NCBI GenBank assembly: GCA_027621385.1
Contig: JAQCBQ010000005.1
Coordinates: forward strand, 1-33,387
Origin: Bacteroidota bacterium
Lineage (GTDB): Bacteria > Bacteroidota > Bacteroidia > CAIKAF01
Direction: 5' to 3'
Length of the DNA: 33,387 nt
Position numbers and translations under genes: made by a program. The notes beneath the pieces were generated by a model. The model searched no databases. It had not been told where the DNA came from and saw only the letters and a program-made list of their open reading frames with translations. Position 1 is the stretch's first letter. Each line of letters starts with the position of its first letter. This document shows positions 3,624 to 26,689 of the stretch, piece by piece.

Positions 3624-5030
3624 ATGAGGGGGCTTTATTCGGCGACCTTCGGTTTACTTGCAGTTCTGCAGGTAAATCTTTTGGCTCAATTGCCTGTTGT
3701 ACAAGGAAATTTAACTTCAACAGCCGGTGACCGGTTGTCTATCCTCCAGGTATTTCCAGATTCAGTGCCTTGGGTTTCTTTGATTTTCAGAGCAGAAAAT
3801 CAAAATGGGGAAGCGCTTTTTGGCTTAAAATCAAGCGCCTTAACCGTAGAAGAAGATCAGCAACCTTGCACAATTATTGATTTTCGTCCCCTATCAGCGG
3901 GAATGCCATTGGTTGTAAATATGGTATTGGATCAATCCACGTCCATGTATTTTGATTATGTTGAGTTAAATCGCCTTAACATAACGCCTTTAGATGTGAC
4001 GGTTGATTCAAATGGACAGTTCCTTTTTCCCAAAAGCTACACTCCGCCTCTGATTCAGGCAAAAAATGCCATTCAACACTTTATTGAAAAGTTAAACATT
4101 GGGAAAGATAAACTAGGATACATTGGCTTTTCAAATGAGGTAAAACTGCGGATACCGCCCACCCAGAATAAAGAGAAGCTGATTCAGTCTTTAGAAAATT
4201 TAGAGGCAGCAGCCTCTACGGCCTTTTACGATGCCCTTATGGTGGCTCTGCAGAATTACGAATCTGATTACGGAATGAAGGTCATCATTGCCTTAACCGA
4301 CGGCAACGACAACAGTTCTGTTTTCACCTTCGACGATGTGGTTGACCTATCCAAGGAAAAGCAAATTCCCATTTACATCATTGGTTTGGGTGAAGTCAAT
4401 GCAGACAGTCTAAATGTATTGGCCTCAAAAACCGATGGTCAATTTTTTTATGCCCCTACGGCCAATGTGCTTGACAGCACCTACCAAATCATTCAAAATC
4501 GGATAAATGCCTTTTACGAGCTCATTTACGAATCCAAGAATCTGTCAGCATCAGACACCCTGCGTTCCATTTACCTCGGATTTATGGCGGCTGATTCTAC
4601 CTTGTTGTACGATGAAGCTACCCTGCGGCTGCACCCCGAATTGCGCCAACGGTTAATTGAAATTTCAGAACAGCGCAGGCAAGCAAAAAATCAAAACAAT
4701 GCGCTAGCCCTTCTTGGCTTTATATCGGTCGCCGCTATCGGAGCCGGTTTGGTTTTCTTCACATTCCGACCCAAAAACCAAAAGCGTATCGATGGCTTAA
4801 CGCTGCTTCCCAATCCGGCAGATACCATTACTATCGCTAAGCTTAAGCGTAAAGTGAAATCCGGGAAGTGGCAGGTTACTTCCCAGCATGGACACAGCAT
4901 GTTTGAACAAGAATCTACTTCTTCCGAACTTCAATTGAATGTAGGGTCCTGGCCCACTGGAACCTATGTTTTAACCTTCACTTCGCCCAAAGGCGAAATC
5001 CATCGGGCGAATTTGCTTGTACAGCATTAG
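3624..5030 (+). CDS. von Willebrand factor A domain protein with C-terminal TM segment and T9SS-CTD-like tail
   Basis: MVLDQSTSM (MIDAS-like DxSxS) and ALTDGNDNSS; TM ALALLGFISVAAIGAGLVFFTF; tail LLPNPADTITI...LNVGSWPTGTYVLTFTSPKGEIHRANLLVQH. Starts 3 nt after the previous stop. Confidence 0.82.
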   Translation: MRGLYSATFGLLAVLQVNLLAQLPVVQGNLTSTAGDRLSILQVFPDSVPWVSLIFRAENQNGEALFGLKSSALTVEEDQQPCTIIDFRPLSAGMPLVVNMVLDQSTSMYFDYVELNRLNITPLDVTVDSNGQFLFPKSYTPPLIQAKNAIQHFIEKLNIGKDKLGYIGFSNEVKLRIPPTQNKEKLIQSLENLEAAASTAFYDALMVALQNYESDYGMKVIIALTDGNDNSSVFTFDDVVDLSKEKQIPIYIIGLGEVNADSLNVLASKTDGQFFYAPTANVLDSTYQIIQNRINAFYELIYESKNLSASDTLRSIYLGFMAADSTLLYDEATLRLHPELRQRLIEISEQRRQAKNQNNALALLGFISVAAIGAGLVFFTFRPKNQKRIDGLTLLPNPADTITIAKLKRKVKSGKWQVTSQHGHSMFEQESTSSELQLNVGSWPTGTYVLTFTSPKGEIHRANLLVQH

Positions 5031-5149
5031 TAAAAAGCGAGTTCGACCGATTTCAATTAGCGCCGTTCAGAGCACATCTTCGAATACCACAAATCGAGGT
5101 GGACTGTTTTACAACTAGTAGAGGAAGGTAGCTGGGGACTGTTATTTTG

Positions 5150-5302
5150 GTGGGCGGCTGATCCGGCTATCGCAGGTAGTCCTCCTGCCCGTGCTCGCAG
5201 CCCTAACGGTTTTGGGTAGCTCACAAGCTCGCTCCCAAAACCGTGGGGCTGCGGCACGATGCAGTTGTGGGCTACCTAGCTCTATCCGGGCCGGGCGGCC
5301 CG
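5150..5302 (+). repeat. GC-rich structured intergenic element, divergent member of the dispersed family
   Basis: Begins GGGCGGCTGATCCGGCTATCGCAGGTAG, like GGGCGGCTGCCGGGCTTTCACCGGTAG in the 26.6 kb copy; closes with GGGCTACCTAGCTCTATCC, like GGTCTACCTGGCTCAATCC. Nested stems 5175-5179/5272-5276, 5190-5194/5254-5258, 5197-5203/5246-5252, 5206-5216/5234-5244. Confidence 0.7.
5287..5302. terminator. Possible terminator hairpin between convergent genes
   Basis: Perfect stem CGGGCC-GGGC-GGCCCG immediately before the convergent gene's stop codon; no clear T-run, so function uncertain. Confidence 0.3.
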
Positions 5303-5309
5303 AAACTCC

Positions 5310-8300
5310 TTATCTCAACAAATTAACATTGCCTCTAAATTCATGGTATTCACCATAAAAATCTCGAACAATGATTTTGTAAACGTAAATGTCTTGTTTC
5401 GCTGGGCCATTTAAATATTGGCCATTCCAGCCCTTTTTCATGGGCTCCAGATTTTTCAAATAAGCCACCTCTTCTCCCCAGCGATTGAACACCCACATTT
5501 CAGCCTCAACAATGCCTCGGCCATGCACCATAAACTCATCGTTGGTACCGTCGTTGTTGGGTGTGAATGAATTGGGTATGTACACCGTGAAATCTGAGTT
5601 GATGCGTACCGTGTGGTATACAGAATCAGAACACCCTTTATCGGTAGCAATCCAAAGGTAAACCACGTAAGTGCCCGTGTCAGCAGGATAAACATGAGAT
5701 ACATGTTGAGAAGTATAGGTACTTCCCTCACCCATTTCCCAATAGAATTGGGTTGGATTTCCTAAGCTTAAATTGGTGAACTCTAAATTCCGCTGAACGA
5801 TGGTTGGGTTTTCAGGAGTAAAAGCAAATTCTGCATCGGGTAAGGCATACACCTTGATGGTATCAGTAAAGGTCACGGTAGTATCGCAATTCTTATCGGA
5901 ATTGGCATACAATGAAACCGTATAATTACCCGGAGTCATATAATACTGGGTTGGATTTGCCATGCTGGCCGTTTGTCCATTTCCGAAATCCCAAAGGTAA
6001 CTGCTCACGGTATTGCTTCCAGGTATGGTAGTATTGTTGGTGAAATTCACAAACAATGGAGCACAGCCCTCAAAGGGGAATGGGGTAAAATCAACCCGAG
6101 GTCTGGGGTAAATAGAAACCGGCTTGGTTACACTATCGATGCAGCCTTGGTTGCTGGTGGCCACCAAGGTCACCATGTATGTACCATCGGCAGGGAATAC
6201 AGCCGTTGGATTGGCAACGAAGGAATTGGGCAAGGTTGGAGTGGCAAAATCCCAAATGTAGCTGGTAATGCTTCCACCCTGAATGATGGAGGAGTTCGTA
6301 AAAGTCACTGTTTCCCGGCTGCATTCGCTTGGTGCACTAAAATCAGGTTGAGGCAATGGATGCACTGTGGTATTGCCATAGGCTGTATCTGCACAACCGT
6401 TCGCAGAAATGACAATCAACTGAATTGGATATGTGCCAGGGTTTTGATACGTATGATTTGTCACACCTTGGTTTCCTGTGGCTCCATTCCCATAATCCCA
6501 GAACCACTGCGCCACTGTCCCATTGGTTACCGTAGATTGGTCGGTAAAAATCGTGGGAACACCATGACAAACGTTGGGGACTGAAATTGCTGCCTGCGGC
6601 CAATGGTAATTGGTATAGGGTATGGTTACAGTATCTAAACAACCTTCATCGCTTGTTACAATTAAGGTAACATTGTAGGTGCCATTTCCAGGATAGGTAT
6701 ATGTGGGAGAAGGTTGTGTACTAGTTTGTCCGTTTCCAAAATCCCAGCTCCAGTTCTGAATAACTCCGGGGTTAGAAATTGAAGACTGATCTGTGAACGG
6801 AGCAATCATCCCGCAGGAAGGAGGCAAAGCAAAATTGGCTACCGGTTTAGGAGTAATCAACAAACTTTGAGATACGGTATCGGTACAGCCTCCAACACCT
6901 GCAACCACCAGCGTAACCGTATAAGTGCCATGGGTTCCATAGGAGTGCTGAGGGTTTTGTTGGGTAGAAGATTGACCGTTGCCAAAATCCCAATTCCACG
7001 TGGCTATGCTTGAATTTGGAATGGTCGATTGATCTGTAAAGGGAGCAAAAGAACCAAAGCAGGTTTGGGGTACAGAAAATGCCGCTTGAGGTATAGACCA
7101 GGTCACGAATGGCTGCACCAACGTATCAGAACAACCTTCGTTTGAAACCACAACTAGAGATATGTTGTAGGGCCCAGGCACCGTATATTGATGCGATGGA
7201 TTTTGCTGATTTGCAGTTTGACCATTTCCAAAGTCCCAAGCCCAGCTGACAATCGTACCTGGATTGGCAATCGTAGACTGGTCGGCAAAGGCATTCAACA
7301 AACCACAGGAATCGGGCAATGAAAAATTAGCCACCGGTGTTGGAGGAACGTTTACGCTTTGCGTAATGGTATCGGTGCAACCACCTTGACCTGTTACAAT
7401 CAACGTAACGTTGTACACTCCATGGCTAGGATAACTGTAATTGGGGTTTTGCTGAGTACTGCTTTGTCCATTGCCGTAATCCCAATTCCAATTGGTAATG
7501 GTAGAGTTGACGATGGATGAATTGTCTTGAAATGGAACTGGATTTCCATGGCAGGTTTGTGGACCGGTAAAGGCTGCTGTAGGAATAGACCAAACTGTAA
7601 ATGGTTTAATAATTGTGTCGGAACAGCCTTGATTGGAGGAGACAATCAATTGAACATTATACACGCCTGGAGAAGCATAGGTATAATTTGCGTTGGCAGT
7701 ATTGGCGGTTTGTCCATTCCCAAAATCCCAGGCATACGAAGTAATAAAGCCAGGAGGAGCAATGGTAGAAGAACTTCCAATGGGCCCTGATAAGCCACAT
7801 GATGGAGGAAGAACAAAATCTGCAACTGGGGTTGGTGGCACATTCACCACTTGAGTAGCTGTATCAGAACAACCTCCAGGCCCCGTAGCTATAAGCGTAA
7901 CGGAGTATTGTCCGGGGTTCACATAGTTCATGGAAGGGTTCAATTGCGTTGAAGTCTGTCCATTTCCTAAATTCCAATTGTACGACATTTGTCCATTGCC
8001 CTGAATGCTCGAGGTATTGGTAAAGGGTACTGAATTCCCGTGACAGGTTTGTGGAGCTGTAAACGAAGCTACGGGAATGGCATATCTGGTAATTTGCTGA
8101 GTCGCAGTCCCAGTACAACCATCACTAGAGGTAGCGGTAAGCGTAATTGAGTAATTACCCGGATTGGTATAATTAAAATTCGGATTGGCTGATGTAGAGG
8201 TTTGACCGTTCCCTAGAACCCATTGATAACTTGCGATGGTTCCGGGTGGAGCTATCGTAGAAGTATTGGTAATTTGACCCGTTAAACCACAAGGGGGAGG

Positions 8301-9935
8301 CATGGTAAAGGACGCCACAGGATTGGGATTAACCGTAACCGATTGAATTGCCGTATCAACACATCCACCAGGTCCAGTCACAATCAACTGAGCTGTATAG
8401 GTACCCGGATTGGCATAGGTATGCCAAGGACTTGCTTGAACAGATGTATTTCCATCGCCAAAATCCCAGGAATGATTCATTAGGCCGCCACCCAAAATCG
8501 TAGAGGTATTGACGAATGGCATAACCTGGCCGTGGCATACATTATTAAACGTAAAACTGGCGCTGGGGATTGAGTTCATGGTGACCGGACTGACAATGGT
8601 ATCGGCGCAACCGTTGTTATCTGTAACTACAAGAGTTACATTGTATGTACCCGGAGAATTATAGGTATGGGATGGATTTTGAAGTGTATCAAATGAACCA
8701 TCACCAAAATCCCAGCTCCAAGAAACCAAACTTCCTGGTTGAGAGATTGAAGAGGAATCGGTAAATACACGAACCATTCCACAGGCGGAATCGGCTACAA
8801 AATCGGGAGTTAAAATGGGGGGTACAACCACAGGAAGCGTGACCGTATCTTCGCAGCCCACCTGAGCGGATGAAATCAATGTTACATTGTACGACCCGGG
8901 ATTGGCGTATTGGTGAATCGGATTTTGTTGAGAAGAATTCGGGCTACCATCACCGAAATCCCAGTTCCAAACTGCAGGCTGAACACCAGGAATAGTGGTA
9001 GAATCATTAAACTGCAATGTTCCATTGCACAAATTCTGGGTAAAAAAGTGAGCTGCAGGAAGCACCGGATTGATGTTGGCAGAAAGTTGAGCAGTACAAC
9101 CGGTAGCTGAAGTCAATGTAACTTGATACACGTTTTGACCCCAGGTAGGATTCACAATTGAAATTTGCTGAGTGGTAGCTCCATTTGACCATTGGTAACC
9201 CACAAACCCCGGAGGAGCAACTAAGGTAGCAACTGTATCTCCTACACAATAAGTGATATCAATTTGAAGTGGGCGGCATTCGGCGGCTAAATATGCATAA
9301 CCATAGTGACCAGAATAATCGCAGTCACCCGTTCTAGCTTCAATTGTAACAACCTGACCCACATAATTCAACAGATTTACGCCGGTTGTGGTCCAGTTTC
9401 TCCACCGAACCTGACCTTGGTTTACAAAGCCGGGGACGTTGTTGCCGGCAGCTACCTGATAAAAAGTACAAGGGATAATCCCTCCATTTTGATTTTTAAC
9501 CTGCATTTCAAAGCGAGGCTGAGCTATAGGGGGATGGCCGGGGTCTTGCAATACCACCGCATACCTATAAATAAACAGGGCATTTTGCTGAGAAACCGTA
9601 AACGAGTAGGTTAAACTTTCCGCCTGAGCCCCTACCTGACTGTTCCCTAAGCGAGCGGATTGAGGAGTGCCAGGAGGCGTTCTTGTTAGAGCATTAATAA
9701 TGGGGTCAAGACCCGGAGTCATAATGGTATGACGACCATTTTGAATGGTGTTTGGATTCGTAATCACAATAGGACAGCAGTTGCCAATTCCACCAACCCA
9801 GTTTTGAAATCCATTCATGGAGAAATCTGCATTTGGACAACCAGCACCGGGCTGACTAAAGCCAACCAAAGGAGCGAGCAGCATTAGAAGCAATGCTACC
9901 GGAATCTTGAAAGAATGAGGTAATTTCATCTCCAT
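5310..9935 (-). CDS. Giant secreted PKD-repeat protein with gliding-motility-associated C-terminal domain
   Basis: 1541 aa; signal peptide; many WDFGNGQT/S...NPxHxY...PGTYxVTLxVTxxxGCxDT PKD repeats; C-term VYIPNSFTPNNDGTNDEFMVHGRGIVEAEMWVFNRWGEEV...KGWNGQYLNGPAKQDIYVYKIIVRD. Confidence 0.93.
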   Translation of the reverse strand: MEMKLPHSFKIPVALLLMLLAPLVGFSQPGAGCPNADFSMNGFQNWVGGIGNCCPIVITNPNTIQNGRHTIMTPGLDPIINALTRTPPGTPQSARLGNSQVGAQAESLTYSFTVSQQNALFIYRYAVVLQDPGHPPIAQPRFEMQVKNQNGGIIPCTFYQVAAGNNVPGFVNQGQVRWRNWTTTGVNLLNYVGQVVTIEARTGDCDYSGHYGYAYLAAECRPLQIDITYCVGDTVATLVAPPGFVGYQWSNGATTQQISIVNPTWGQNVYQVTLTSATGCTAQLSANINPVLPAAHFFTQNLCNGTLQFNDSTTIPGVQPAVWNWDFGDGSPNSSQQNPIHQYANPGSYNVTLISSAQVGCEDTVTLPVVVPPILTPDFVADSACGMVRVFTDSSSISQPGSLVSWSWDFGDGSFDTLQNPSHTYNSPGTYNVTLVVTDNNGCADTIVSPVTMNSIPSASFTFNNVCHGQVMPFVNTSTILGGGLMNHSWDFGDGNTSVQASPWHTYANPGTYTAQLIVTGPGGCVDTAIQSVTVNPNPVASFTMPPPCGLTGQITNTSTIAPPGTIASYQWVLGNGQTSTSANPNFNYTNPGNYSITLTATSSDGCTGTATQQITRYAIPVASFTAPQTCHGNSVPFTNTSSIQGNGQMSYNWNLGNGQTSTQLNPSMNYVNPGQYSVTLIATGPGGCSDTATQVVNVPPTPVADFVLPPSCGLSGPIGSSSTIAPPGFITSYAWDFGNGQTANTANANYTYASPGVYNVQLIVSSNQGCSDTIIKPFTVWSIPTAAFTGPQTCHGNPVPFQDNSSIVNSTITNWNWDYGNGQSSTQQNPNYSYPSHGVYNVTLIVTGQGGCTDTITQSVNVPPTPVANFSLPDSCGLLNAFADQSTIANPGTIVSWAWDFGNGQTANQQNPSHQYTVPGPYNISLVVVSNEGCSDTLVQPFVTWSIPQAAFSVPQTCFGSFAPFTDQSTIPNSSIATWNWDFGNGQSSTQQNPQHSYGTHGTYTVTLVVAGVGGCTDTVSQSLLITPKPVANFALPPSCGMIAPFTDQSSISNPGVIQNWSWDFGNGQTSTQPSPTYTYPGNGTYNVTLIVTSDEGCLDTVTIPYTNYHWPQAAISVPNVCHGVPTIFTDQSTVTNGTVAQWFWDYGNGATGNQGVTNHTYQNPGTYPIQLIVISANGCADTAYGNTTVHPLPQPDFSAPSECSRETVTFTNSSIIQGGSITSYIWDFATPTLPNSFVANPTAVFPADGTYMVTLVATSNQGCIDSVTKPVSIYPRPRVDFTPFPFEGCAPLFVNFTNNTTIPGSNTVSSYLWDFGNGQTASMANPTQYYMTPGNYTVSLYANSDKNCDTTVTFTDTIKVYALPDAEFAFTPENPTIVQRNLEFTNLSLGNPTQFYWEMGEGSTYTSQHVSHVYPADTGTYVVYLWIATDKGCSDSVYHTVRINSDFTVYIPNSFTPNNDGTNDEFMVHGRGIVEAEMWVFNRWGEEVAYLKNLEPMKKGWNGQYLNGPAKQDIYVYKIIVRDFYGEYHEFRGNVNLLR
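5900..8900 (-). repeat. Tandem PKD-domain-encoding repeat block (alternating two subtypes)
   Basis: Translated repeats alternate between a CGL...SNQGCSDT type and a QTCHG...TGPGGCTDT type, implying an approximately two-domain repeat unit. Boundaries approximate. Confidence 0.7.
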
Positions 9936-10015
9936 AAAATGGCAATTTCTAGGAATTAGACCTTAAATTTTAAAAAAAGTTGCAGGGTGGTTATAAATTT
10001 CCATGTCAACAACGC

Positions 10016-12631
10016 TTATCGGATAAGGTTGATGTGCCCGTGATACTCATGAACCAAATTAAAAAAGTCTCGAACGACCAACCGATATGCGTAGGTGCCC
10101 TGGGGTGCAGGACTTCCATTGTAACTACCGTCCCAACCTTTATTTAAAGGTGCCAAATGTTCACCCCTATATAAAGAAGCTCCCCAGCGATCAAAAATTT
10201 CTAAGTCAGCTTCTACAATAGCCGTCCCAGCAATGGTAAAAAATTCATTTAAGCCATCTCCATCGGGGCTGAACGTATTTGGAACATACACATTGTATTC
10301 AGGAATCACCTTAACCCAGCGCCAGGTGGTATCAGCACAACCCCATTGATTGAATGTAACCAATCGTACTGGATATGAATTTGTATCTGATGCATAATAA
10401 ATTCTGGGATTCTCATCCGTAGAATTCATTCCATTGCCAAAATCCCACTCGTAATTTTCACCCATATCAGATCGATTTCTAAATTGTACAAGAGGATTGT
10501 TCACTGTTGGTTTTTCTGGAGTCCAATCAAAAGCCGCTGTAGGTTGAGGCCGTACTGTGATGTAATTGTTTAAGGTGAGTGAAGTATCACAACCTTGATC
10601 AGAAACCGCATACAAGGTCACCGAATATGAACCTGCGGCGTTGGGGTATGCGTGGCTTGGAGAGGCCTGAGTAGAAGTTCCGCCATCTCCAAAGTTCCAT
10701 ACCCATTGAACCACTGAACCAACATCAATGGTAGATTGATTATCAAAGAAAGGCACCACAGGGTAACAACCAGACAATGGACTGGCATCCCAAATCAGAT
10801 TTGGTTTTGGCCAAACGGTAGCAGTTTTAACCACCGAATCAACGCATCCCGCGGCACTTGTAGCAGTTAAAACAATAGGCCAATCTCCGGCATTGGGAAT
10901 CAACAAGGTTGGATTTACCACCGTTTGCGATGGGATACCCGAACCAAAGTTCCATTGATAACTTGCAATGCTACCTTGAGAAATGCTACTCGAATTTACA
11001 AATTGGCTATTGAAACCTTCGCAGGGTGAATTAACCGTGAAATCCACCACAGGTAAGGGCAGAATTGTCAACATTTGAGTCAATGTATCTGTACAGCCAT
11101 CGGCAGTGGTAACCACCAAGGTCACCGGATACGAACCTTCCGTCGGATAGATGAGCGATGGGGTTGGATTTCCCGAAATTTGAGCCCCATTCAGTCCGAA
11201 ATCCCATTCCCAATTCACAATTTGAGAGAAGGGAACGGTTGATTGATCTACAAAAGCTACAGGATTCTCTGCACAGGTTGTTGGAGAAAGAAACTGAGCG
11301 GTTGGGAACGCCCAGTTTGTAAAAGGAGCGGTGTAGGTATCGGTACATCCATTGGCCGAAGTCACGGTCAAACTTACCTGCCACTGGCCCGGTTGAGTAT
11401 AGGTATGTGTTGGGTTTTGAACGGCGGAGGTTGAGCCGTTACCAAAATCCCAAGCCCATCCAACAATTTGACCAGGTCCGCTTGGTGTGGTTGAATTATC
11501 TAAAAACTGATTCATCAAACCACAATCCGTTGGCAGAATAAAGTTGGCGATGGGGTCTACATCCAATACAGAAATAGGAAATTGCACACTATCCTGGCAT
11601 CCCATTGGCGCAGTAATCACCAAGGAACCGGTGTAATTGCCATAATTGGCATAGGTATGAGTAGGATTGGCCTGAGTTGAGGTACTTCCGTTTCCAAAAT
11701 TCCAGAAGTAATTTGTGAAGGTGTAACCGCTGGTATCGGCAAAGGTCATTTGACCCGAACATCCAGGGGTAATCGAAACTGAATTGGATAAATCAATCAC
11801 CTGAATGCAGACCGTATCAGAACATCCAAAACCCGTTGAATCACTTATAGTTACAACAATACAAGTGTCGTTTTGAACGGAAAACAGGGTGTCTGAGGTA
11901 GCATTGGCACCGGACAATCCGGTTGACCATGAATAGTTCCCGGTGGACCCCCCGTTGATGTTGATGTCTTCCAGACCCCAGTTATCGCAACAGGTACCTG
12001 AAGAAAAGAATTGAATCCAACGGAATTTAGTACTTGCGGTTTGGGCAGCTGGAGGAATTGGAATGCTAACCGTATTCCAAACCGTGTATGGTGTTGGGCC
12101 GTTTGCCACCCCATTTGTCGTACCGGGATTGGTAGGCAATTGAATGCCCGCCGGAGAAAAGTACGTGATATCAACCCAAGAAGCTCCATTGTTAATGGAA
12201 TACTGCAAAGAAACGCCTTCCCGTGCTAAATCGGGTCCTTCGCAAGGTGTCATCCCCCCTTGCTGACTAAAAATAAAACTAAAATCAATGGTTCCGCCCC
12301 CGGTTACATTTAAGGTGGCAGTTTGAATTTCTGGGGTTGAATTTCCGGAACTTGCCGCCCAATAGTAAGGCGTACCACTTGGACTAGGACCGCAGGGTGA
12401 CGTAAAGGATGTCGTTCCCGTAGTGGACCAACCCGAAGGCAGAGTTCCAGAATTAAAATTGAAATTGTATCCCCCACCGCTCTGCAACATTCCGTTTGCC
12501 GAAATGATCACATTAGAACCTTGACAAACAGGATTAAAATTTGCCGAAGCCGTAATGTTGCACAATTGCTGTGAGAAAGCCGGCATGAAAGCCAAACTTA
12601 AAACCGCTGATAGAATGTATTTTTTAAACAT
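10016..12631 (-). CDS. Secreted protein with N-terminal reelin-like/jelly-roll-like region, PKD repeats and gliding-motility-associated C-terminal domain
   Basis: Likely start ATG at 12631 (MFKKYILSAVLSLAFMPAFSQ signal peptide) rather than 12673; N-region VSLQYSINNGASWVDI...CCDNWGLEDININGG; PKD repeats; C-term VYVPNTFSPDGDGLNEFFTIAGTAIVEADLEIFDRWGASLYRGE. Confidence 0.88.
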   Translation of the reverse strand: MFKKYILSAVLSLAFMPAFSQQLCNITASANFNPVCQGSNVIISANGMLQSGGGYNFNFNSGTLPSGWSTTGTTSFTSPCGPSPSGTPYYWAASSGNSTPEIQTATLNVTGGGTIDFSFIFSQQGGMTPCEGPDLAREGVSLQYSINNGASWVDITYFSPAGIQLPTNPGTTNGVANGPTPYTVWNTVSIPIPPAAQTASTKFRWIQFFSSGTCCDNWGLEDININGGSTGNYSWSTGLSGANATSDTLFSVQNDTCIVVTISDSTGFGCSDTVCIQVIDLSNSVSITPGCSGQMTFADTSGYTFTNYFWNFGNGSTSTQANPTHTYANYGNYTGSLVITAPMGCQDSVQFPISVLDVDPIANFILPTDCGLMNQFLDNSTTPSGPGQIVGWAWDFGNGSTSAVQNPTHTYTQPGQWQVSLTVTSANGCTDTYTAPFTNWAFPTAQFLSPTTCAENPVAFVDQSTVPFSQIVNWEWDFGLNGAQISGNPTPSLIYPTEGSYPVTLVVTTADGCTDTLTQMLTILPLPVVDFTVNSPCEGFNSQFVNSSSISQGSIASYQWNFGSGIPSQTVVNPTLLIPNAGDWPIVLTATSAAGCVDSVVKTATVWPKPNLIWDASPLSGCYPVVPFFDNQSTIDVGSVVQWVWNFGDGGTSTQASPSHAYPNAAGSYSVTLYAVSDQGCDTSLTLNNYITVRPQPTAAFDWTPEKPTVNNPLVQFRNRSDMGENYEWDFGNGMNSTDENPRIYYASDTNSYPVRLVTFNQWGCADTTWRWVKVIPEYNVYVPNTFSPDGDGLNEFFTIAGTAIVEADLEIFDRWGASLYRGEHLAPLNKGWDGSYNGSPAPQGTYAYRLVVRDFFNLVHEYHGHINLIR

Positions 12632-12828
12632 AGGCGAGTTTTCACTTCCTTGCAAATTTATTAAATTAATCAATGCCTAGATTCATTTTAACGACTTTAC
12701 GCTGCATTCCTTAATTACTTATTGAAATTTACACACCAAAAAACTGCTTGAAAAGAAAGAAAAGGAGGCATAAACAGTAGAAAGCAAAGGCAATTCCACC
12801 TCAATGCCGAAGTAAACAAAACGCATAC

Positions 12829-12907: not shown

Positions 12908-13060
12908 TTGAGGCATTGCGGCAGGGATTGAAGGAGCTAGCTCTGCAATTGGAAGCCCGGCGGACCGCGCGGTGCGGAGGCGACCTTGGGAGCCCCCGCA
13001 AACCCGCTGGACCGCAGGGCTGCCATTGCAGACTAGCCCTGAAAGCCCGTTCGCCGCCCA
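12908..13060 (-). repeat. GC-rich structured intergenic element, copy A
   Basis: Plus strand TTGAGGCATTGCGGCAGGGATTGA...GACCGCGCGGTGCGGAGGCGACCTTGGGAGCC...TGAAAGCCCGTTCGCCGCCCAA; shares ends and core with 26536-26689 and with the reverse complement of 17119-17263. Confidence 0.88.
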
Positions 13061-17118: not shown

Positions 17119-17263
17119 GGGGCGGCTGCCGGGCTTTCACCGGTTGTCCGCAGTTGGCAGAAGGCTGGCCCAGCGGGTTTGCGGTGGCTCCTAAAGTCGC
17201 CTCCGCACCTCGCGGGCCAGGCTCTGCCACCTTTGCGGGCAACCGTGTTCAATCCCTGCCGCA
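17119..17263 (+). repeat. GC-rich structured intergenic element, copy B
   Basis: Plus strand GGGGCGGCTGCCGGGCTTTCACCGG...TTTGCGGTGGCTCCTAAAGTCGCCTCCGCACC...TTCAATCCCTGCCGC; reverse complement aligns to copies A and C. Confidence 0.85.
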
Positions 17264-26535: not shown

Positions 26536-26689
26536 TTGAGGCATTGCGGCAGGGATTGAGCCAGGTAGACCAACGGTCGGCAGCCCCTCTGACCGCGCGG
26601 CGCGGAGGCGACCTTGGGAGCCCACGCAAGCCCGCTGGACAGAAGGGCTGCCGCTGTTGGCTACCGGTGAAAGCCCGGCAGCCGCCCAA
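26536..26689 (-). repeat. GC-rich structured intergenic element, copy C
   Basis: Plus strand TTGAGGCATTGCGGCAGGGATTGA...GACCGCGCGGCGCGGAGGCGACCTTGGGAGCCCACGCAAGCCCGCTGGAC...GGTGAAAGCCCGGCAGCCGCCCAA; the first 24 nt are identical to copy A. Confidence 0.9.

Follow-up and report, generated by a model that had tools for sequence, protein, structure and literature searches.

Bacterial extragenic palindromes are usually seen as remnants of mobile elements. REPs are hairpins of 20–65 nt with a GTAG or GTGG foot and a linked TnpA-REP gene. The attC sites of integrons combine arms of variable sequence with a conserved structure and strand-specific mismatches. Longer intergenic repeats include ERIC (RU-1; 127 bp), whose copies have a shared sequence, TA termini and terminal inverted repeats, and YPAL (RU-2; ~168 bp), for which target duplications and filled and empty sites point to recent mobility (PMC2229807). 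The BIMEs of E. coli, which number ~600 per genome, have been proposed to act as supercoil barriers and stop the diffusion of supercoils in a test cassette; what supercoil-diffusion barriers consist of is named there as an unanswered question (PMC6907758). For Bacteroidetes, a study of RAYT genes describes 'atypical secondary structures' in subclass 2.6, hairpins of a non-canonical kind that lack the GT[AG]G foot (PMC6006769).

The element that concerns us, D, lies in a 33,387-nt stretch of DNA that was analyzed as a whole (the window) and that belongs to a Bacteroidota genome of 2.36 Mb in 246 contigs (G000). A sequence-only reading of the window had grouped D with three other elements (A, B and C) as a divergent member of one family with the same ends, and this grouping held: a covariance model built from 15 copies (R1) scored D as a full-length member (111 bits, E = 3e-21). 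The shared ends were found three times in the window as against 0 in 100 shuffles, and the genome-wide search for the shared-ends pattern returned 12 matches, compared with 0 for a reversed control. The long, near-perfect hairpin of D was likewise present as described, with a predicted RNA fold of -95.9 kcal/mol (z = -7.4) that was equaled by 0 of 200 shuffles. The features of the locus are collected in Table 1. To the right of D (5310-12673, minus strand) lie two neighboring genes for secreted proteins with PKD repeats (14 and 5 units, with a DNA period of ~246 bp), both of which carry type IX secretion (CHU_C) tails.

Table 1. Positions in the window of element D, its parts and neighbors, and its relatives A, B and C.
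Feature	Position	Strand	Basis or remark
Left neighbor gene (VWA domain, type IX sorting tail)	3624-5030	+	stop codon 121 nt before D
T-rich, C-poor tract left of D (feature common to the family)	5139-5151	+	in the case of D, seen in the sequence
Element D (full length, 143 nt)	5152-5294	+ (orientation of the sequence-only reading)	R1 111.5 bits, model positions 1-142
D private arm, 5′ half	5190-5216	+	compensatory changes in the G001 and G005 orthologues
D apex AGCTCACAAGCTCGCT	5218-5233	+	bottom strand AGCGAGCTTGTGAGCT, motif GCGA-N6-GAGC
D private arm, 3′ half	5234-5258	+	sequence, fold, orthologue alignment
Right neighbor gene (PKD repeats, CHU_C tail)	5310-9935	-	convergent; stop codon 15 nt after D
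Element A	12918-13059	-	R1 135.9 bits
Element C	17120-17262	+	R1 150.7 bits
Element B	26546-26687	-	R1 120.2 bits

Like ERIC, D and its relatives are single long intergenic stem-loops of fixed length, chromosomal and present in many copies, but they conserve only the base and the apex, and we saw no sequence relation between the two. Like YPAL, they are long palindromic intergenic repeats that are not A+T-rich and have a strong predicted fold, but neither filled and empty sites nor target duplications were seen between close element-bearing species. With attC sites they share variable arms, a conserved structure and strand-specific mismatches, but they occur in both orientations and it is their apex that is conserved rather than variable; because orientation is mixed and spacing is ~9 kb, they form no cassette array of the attC kind, and inspection of the element by eye revealed no R or L boxes. 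The hairpins of RAYT subclass 2.6 resemble them in phylum and in the missing GT[AG]G foot, but element-rich genomes are without Y1 genes, and the 2.6-like gene in G000 is accompanied by different, short repeats.

The family is large. R1 found at least 148 copies in G000 (150 of 550 candidates were scored), and contiguous stretches of 1.18 Mb (G003), 0.69 Mb (G000) and ~0.35 Mb (G005) contained 131, 72 and 47 copies, respectively. This density of one copy per ~8–9 kb in the genus of the window corresponds to roughly 250–300 per genome. The copies occupy intergenic sites in both orientations and are 142 ± 3 nt long, with 189 of 199 falling between 140 and 144 nt. Each of the six genomes in the genus of the window carries the element, as do a genome of a sister genus (G014, 104 copies), two further genomes of the same class (G055 and G056, 28 and 33 copies) and MAGs labeled Bacteroidales, Flavobacteriaceae and SZUA-53 (5–55 copies); a strict pattern scan detected copies in at least 11 of 396 genomes. 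Elsewhere, shorter relatives that share the base motif are present in 1 to 11 copies. Genus g52 has single-copy short relatives in six genomes, some of them at shared loci (L324/L325 and L327/L328), where they lie between the same genes across genomes, either a regulator gene and an enzyme gene or another pair of conserved genes.

The 142-nt hairpin family is previously undescribed. Rfam gave no match for the window at the gathering threshold, nor for D and eight of its relatives at E≤1, phages and plasmids had no match to the element, and a literature search with sequence words and the topic found no description of this hairpin family. Many contigs of G000 end inside copies (C170:1-129, C26:1-116, C215:1-77, C143:1-81 and C181:2-63 among them), and the element therefore probably causes breaks in assemblies. 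A 99-nt partial element (model positions 24-123) was found in G000 (L105:19232-19330) and in G003 (L144:10079-10177), and given their equal length, score and composition these two probably represent the same locus.

What the copies have in common is above all their pairing. Among 44 copies from G000, 36 of the 43 pairs varied on both sides, and the covariation score was 0.55, compared with 0.14 when partners were re-dealt (0 of 500 trials as high) and at most 0.14 when the structure was slid; 25 copies from other families yielded 0.51 versus 0.14. Distant orthologues had accumulated 43 compensated double changes versus 3 uncompensated ones, and between G000 and G003 one-sided changes affected 0.6% of paired versus 3.5% of unpaired positions. 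These patterns of substitution indicate that structure, not sequence, is under selection.

The mismatches within the stem suggested which strand, and which kind of molecule, adopts this structure. On the strand in which D is listed in Table 1, isolated stem mismatches were pyrimidine-pyrimidine in 430 cases and purine-purine in 35, and those of the bottom strand are hence G.A, A.G, A.A and G.G. On this strand the base of the hairpin has the invariant motif GGG-A-TT-GA .. GA-AA-G-CCC, and in the family apex GA again faces GA. Of 199 copies, 147 folded better on the bottom strand with DNA parameters (P = 1e-16); with RNA parameters the preference was weak (115 of 199). If the functional molecule were RNA, tolerance of G.U would be expected on its strand; arm covariation was almost solely Watson-Crick. 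Because counts from model-fitted alignments (GT 59 versus AC 25) lean to G.U by construction, we relied for wobble on isolated mismatches outside recurrent positions, which were G.T in 42 cases versus A.C in 30 (P = 0.19), and on recent orthologue changes, in which Watson-Crick pairs became GT 4 times versus AC 17 times. We infer that one strand folds, probably as DNA rather than RNA, and that the folding strand would be the complement of the plus strand of D.

With respect to D itself, the sequence-only reading had stated that it lacks the core of the other members, which is half right, because the arms are private to D but the family apex is retained. The apex at 5218-5233 (AGCTCACAAGCTCGCT) is alignable with the family apex GGCTCCCAAGGTCGCC, and its bottom strand reads GCGA-GCTTGT-GAGC, where nearly all copies have GCGA-N6/7-RAGC and ~194 of 199 agree with the form GCG[AG]-N5-8-RAGC; the apex of D is unchanged across G000, G003 and G001 and has one change in G005. 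The differences between D and the family are confined to the arms between base and apex. At the ends, CTATC..CTATCC replaces CTTTC..CAATCC, a covarying T-A to A-T change found in 6 of 199 copies, and the copies on contigs C6, C151 and C20, which have ends of the D type together with the usual apex, are intermediates between the two types. The suggestion that D represents a discrete sister subfamily is not supported: its inner arm matches no other copy (best 0.67; random 99th percentile, 0.61), the apex is retained, and clustering by arm produced one large continuous cluster plus singletons.

The history of this locus bears on the other interpretation offered, that of a constant base with an exchangeable arm. 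In G003 the orthologue of D lies between the same convergent gene pair and is 98.6% identical, and in G001 and G005 D adjoins the orthologue of the left gene (52% protein identity), with 6 and 8 compensated double changes, respectively, in the arm. By these alignments, four species have inherited the arm of D at one and the same locus, where it has undergone compensatory changes. An exchangeable arm is plausible for the family as a whole, but D as a case of a swapped arm is unsupported, as its arm has been inherited in this way. The earlier observation on D is partly confirmed and its interpretation partly supported. The D locus of G001 and G005 (L120 and L121) also holds an additional element, in the order minus then plus.

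Orthologous sites elsewhere in the genomes allowed us to ask how well the elements are kept in place. At all 36 of the G000/G003 sites for which both flanks could be placed the element was present, and whole elements were 98.4% identical between the two genomes, compared with 88% and 92% in the flanks. Of the places occupied in G005, 7 of 10 retained the element in G003 and 4 of 4 in G000, always in the same orientation; the remaining 3 of 10 were empty in G003, where the intergenic sequence was too diverged to show the joint or to resolve a target duplication. At two loci the species carried unrelated elements at the same place and in the same orientation, which suggests replacement by gene conversion. 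Truncated relics are almost absent: with the threshold lowered to E = 10 across 560 kb, 63 of 64 matches above 25 bits covered the whole model. Comparison of these genomes shows the elements to be retained at orthologous sites under purifying selection.

Between copies, the outer and inner parts of the stem were coupled only in part. Paralogues were up to 97% identical, and between many copies the inner arms were down to the random level. In 16 pairs of copies the outer identity was at least 0.92 and the inner arms were unrelated, and in 17 pairs the inner identity was at least 0.88 and the outer identity below 0.72. The outer N6 stem was shared by 20% of paralogue pairs with inner arms at least 90% identical versus 3% of those with unrelated arms, and by 26 of 29 orthologues. 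Full independence of the modules was rejected: an exact two-sided comparison of N6 suggested near-independence, but a one-sided comparison showed partial coupling. From copy to copy, therefore, the outer helix and the inner one vary independently only to some extent. The simplest account would be that nested modules are exchanged by gene conversion in conserved blocks, and fast compensatory drift of the short stem may contribute.

Placement relative to genes was far from random. Only 12 of 186 copies lay inside a called reading frame, compared with 163 expected from coding density, and relative to the available room convergent gaps were enriched and divergent gaps depleted (64/86/24 versus 43/91/40 expected for convergent, tandem and divergent gaps, P = 2e-4). 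When a co-oriented gene preceded the element, the median distance from its stop codon to the left end was 20 nt; overall, a stop codon lay within 30 nt of the left end in 75 of 114 cases and within 50 nt of the right end in 35 of 100, the tighter placement of the left end being significant (P = 1e-5). The 12 nt to the left of the element were 52–57% T and 3–4% C regardless of the direction of the neighboring gene, and because of this independence we count the T-rich tract as part of the element. Pairing of the tract with the A-rich right flank was considered and rejected, as it gave no gain over re-dealt flanks.

The elements of G003 were also evenly spaced, with a coefficient of variation of 0.615 versus 0.85 ± 0.07 for random intergenic gaps (0 of 1000 permutations as low, P<0.001) and a largest gap of 26.6 kb; the contigs of G000 were too short for the same test (P = 0.23), so that G003 is the one genome in which even spacing is clearly demonstrated. 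A bias toward one replication strand was rejected: a correlation was seen in local windows (P = 2e-5), yet whole contigs carried about equal numbers on both strands, and we attribute the local correlation to the base composition of the element itself. Orientation showed no bias with respect to contig-level GC skew, so that no observation links the chosen strand with replication. Where two elements lay close together in G000 or G003 (seven pairs, with gaps of 41–464 nt), their order was always plus then minus.

The reading that we tentatively favor, plausible though short of probable, is that D is one of a family of 142-nt extragenic DNA hairpins that are conserved within a lineage and that the host maintains in a BIME-like role. 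Against this reading, retention at orthologous sites is incomplete at larger distance (the three empty places in G003), orientation lacks a GC-skew bias at the contig level, and the tightness of the left end to stop codons might also be explained by a role in RNA. Such a role, as part of 3′ UTRs or as a small RNA family that protects or processes transcripts or ends transcription, would also fit the very strong covarying fold and the median of 20 nt after the stop codon of a co-oriented gene, but G.U is not tolerated on either strand, copies behind tandem genes are sense in 50 and antisense in 36 cases (P = 0.16), and Rfam has no match, and we regard a structured RNA as unlikely. An intrinsic terminator was rejected, because whichever direction is read the T-tract of the element lies on the wrong side for one, the T-run coming before the hairpin and A-rich sequence after it. 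A process acting on the DNA itself, in which template switching between the arms lets a quasi-palindrome correct itself so that pairing needs little selection, would account for near-absent wobble pairs and abundant double changes. That process would, however, erase the mismatches at base and apex, which instead persist; close orthologues show far fewer double changes than the divergence of their flanks would predict, and the element exceeds its flanks in identity, so that we hold self-correction to be highly improbable. Nor does a signal for self-recognition, such as a DNA uptake sequence, seem more than slightly likely: uptake sequences are likewise numerous, evenly spaced, intergenic and paired in inverted orientation (PMC1939737), but they are short fixed words, and the elements are 142-nt, structured, variable in their arms and several times sparser.

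Descent from a mobile element deserves fuller consideration. The elements could be non-autonomous mobile palindromes (REP-, MITE-, ERIC- or YPAL-like) that were moved by a transposase in trans and are now mostly fixed, as might be suggested by the hundreds of dispersed copies in both orientations, the near-identity (up to 97%) of some paralogues, the patchy distribution in genus g5 (104 copies in G014, 0–1 in its sisters G009, G013 and G015) and the 3 of 10 places that are empty at larger distance. Against this stand the absence of empty sites from 36 close comparisons, the scarcity of truncated copies, the even spacing and the distribution of candidate transposases. Y1 transposase genes (PF01797) are absent from G001, G005 and G014, whose copy numbers range from 104 up to 150 or more, and are present in G006, G007, G010, G011 and G015, where R1 found 0 copies; no target duplication was resolved at the diverged empty sites, and the RAYT genes that we did observe have short REPs of their own, as does the single RAYT gene near an element (L246), whose REPs are canonical. 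We judge mobility in this form to be fairly improbable. A link to RAYT and REP was rejected because element-rich genomes are without Y1 genes and other repeats surround the RAYT genes. A selfish REP or MITE is made less likely by the 36 close sites, all of them filled, by the near-absence of relics and by the three element-rich genomes with no Y1 gene. REPs and REPINs have a GT[AG]G foot on a 20–65-nt hairpin and a cognate Y1 gene, whereas the element has a base of GGGCGGC..CTTTC, 142 nt and no such foot; copies of MITEs, ERIC and YPAL are alike throughout, whereas the inner arms of many copies of the element resemble one another at the random level. G000 holds two REP-associated Y1 transposase genes, L021 (G000:C206) and L022 (G000:C236); one lies amid repeats that encode ETHNRASL and are inserted in its own frame too, and the frame of the other contains inverted repeats of the GGGGCAGACC/GGGGCGAAC type.

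For a host-kept DNA hairpin, a mechanism can be proposed. Negative supercoiling or transient single-stranding would let the complement of the plus strand of D fold, and a dedicated putative protein would read the base mismatch motif (GGG-A-TT-GA .. GA-AA-G-CCC) together with the apex (GCGA..GAGC), the distance between the two signals being fixed by the length of the arms. Arm sequence would be irrelevant provided that pairing holds, and would therefore drift by compensatory change; at times gene conversion, with other copies as donors, would replace it. Once bound, the hairpins would provide the chromosome with sites at regular intervals, and the most plausible role of these sites would be that of boundaries between supercoils or domains, as with BIMEs. 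The elements resemble BIMEs and REPs in being extragenic palindromes, in numbering hundreds per genome at a similar density and in occupying convergent or tandem gaps, and their density and spacing would be compatible with a BIME-like topological insulator; they differ in their length of 142 nt, in having no GTAG or GTGG foot and no linked transposase gene, and in arms whose sequence is not conserved. A more doubtful extension is a chromosome-marking system specific to Bacteroidota, in which evenly spaced, strand-specific hairpins with interchangeable arms and a putative protein would set topological or segregation domains.

This family breaks assemblies and has no Rfam entry. That the arms always pair and the copies stay put suggests a real job, perhaps in chromosome organization, and elements that are kept in place, structurally preserved base pair by base pair and evenly spread make a host function directly testable. 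If a major phylum has a DNA element that is read by its structure and occurs this densely, it would offer a concrete candidate for a supercoil-diffusion barrier.
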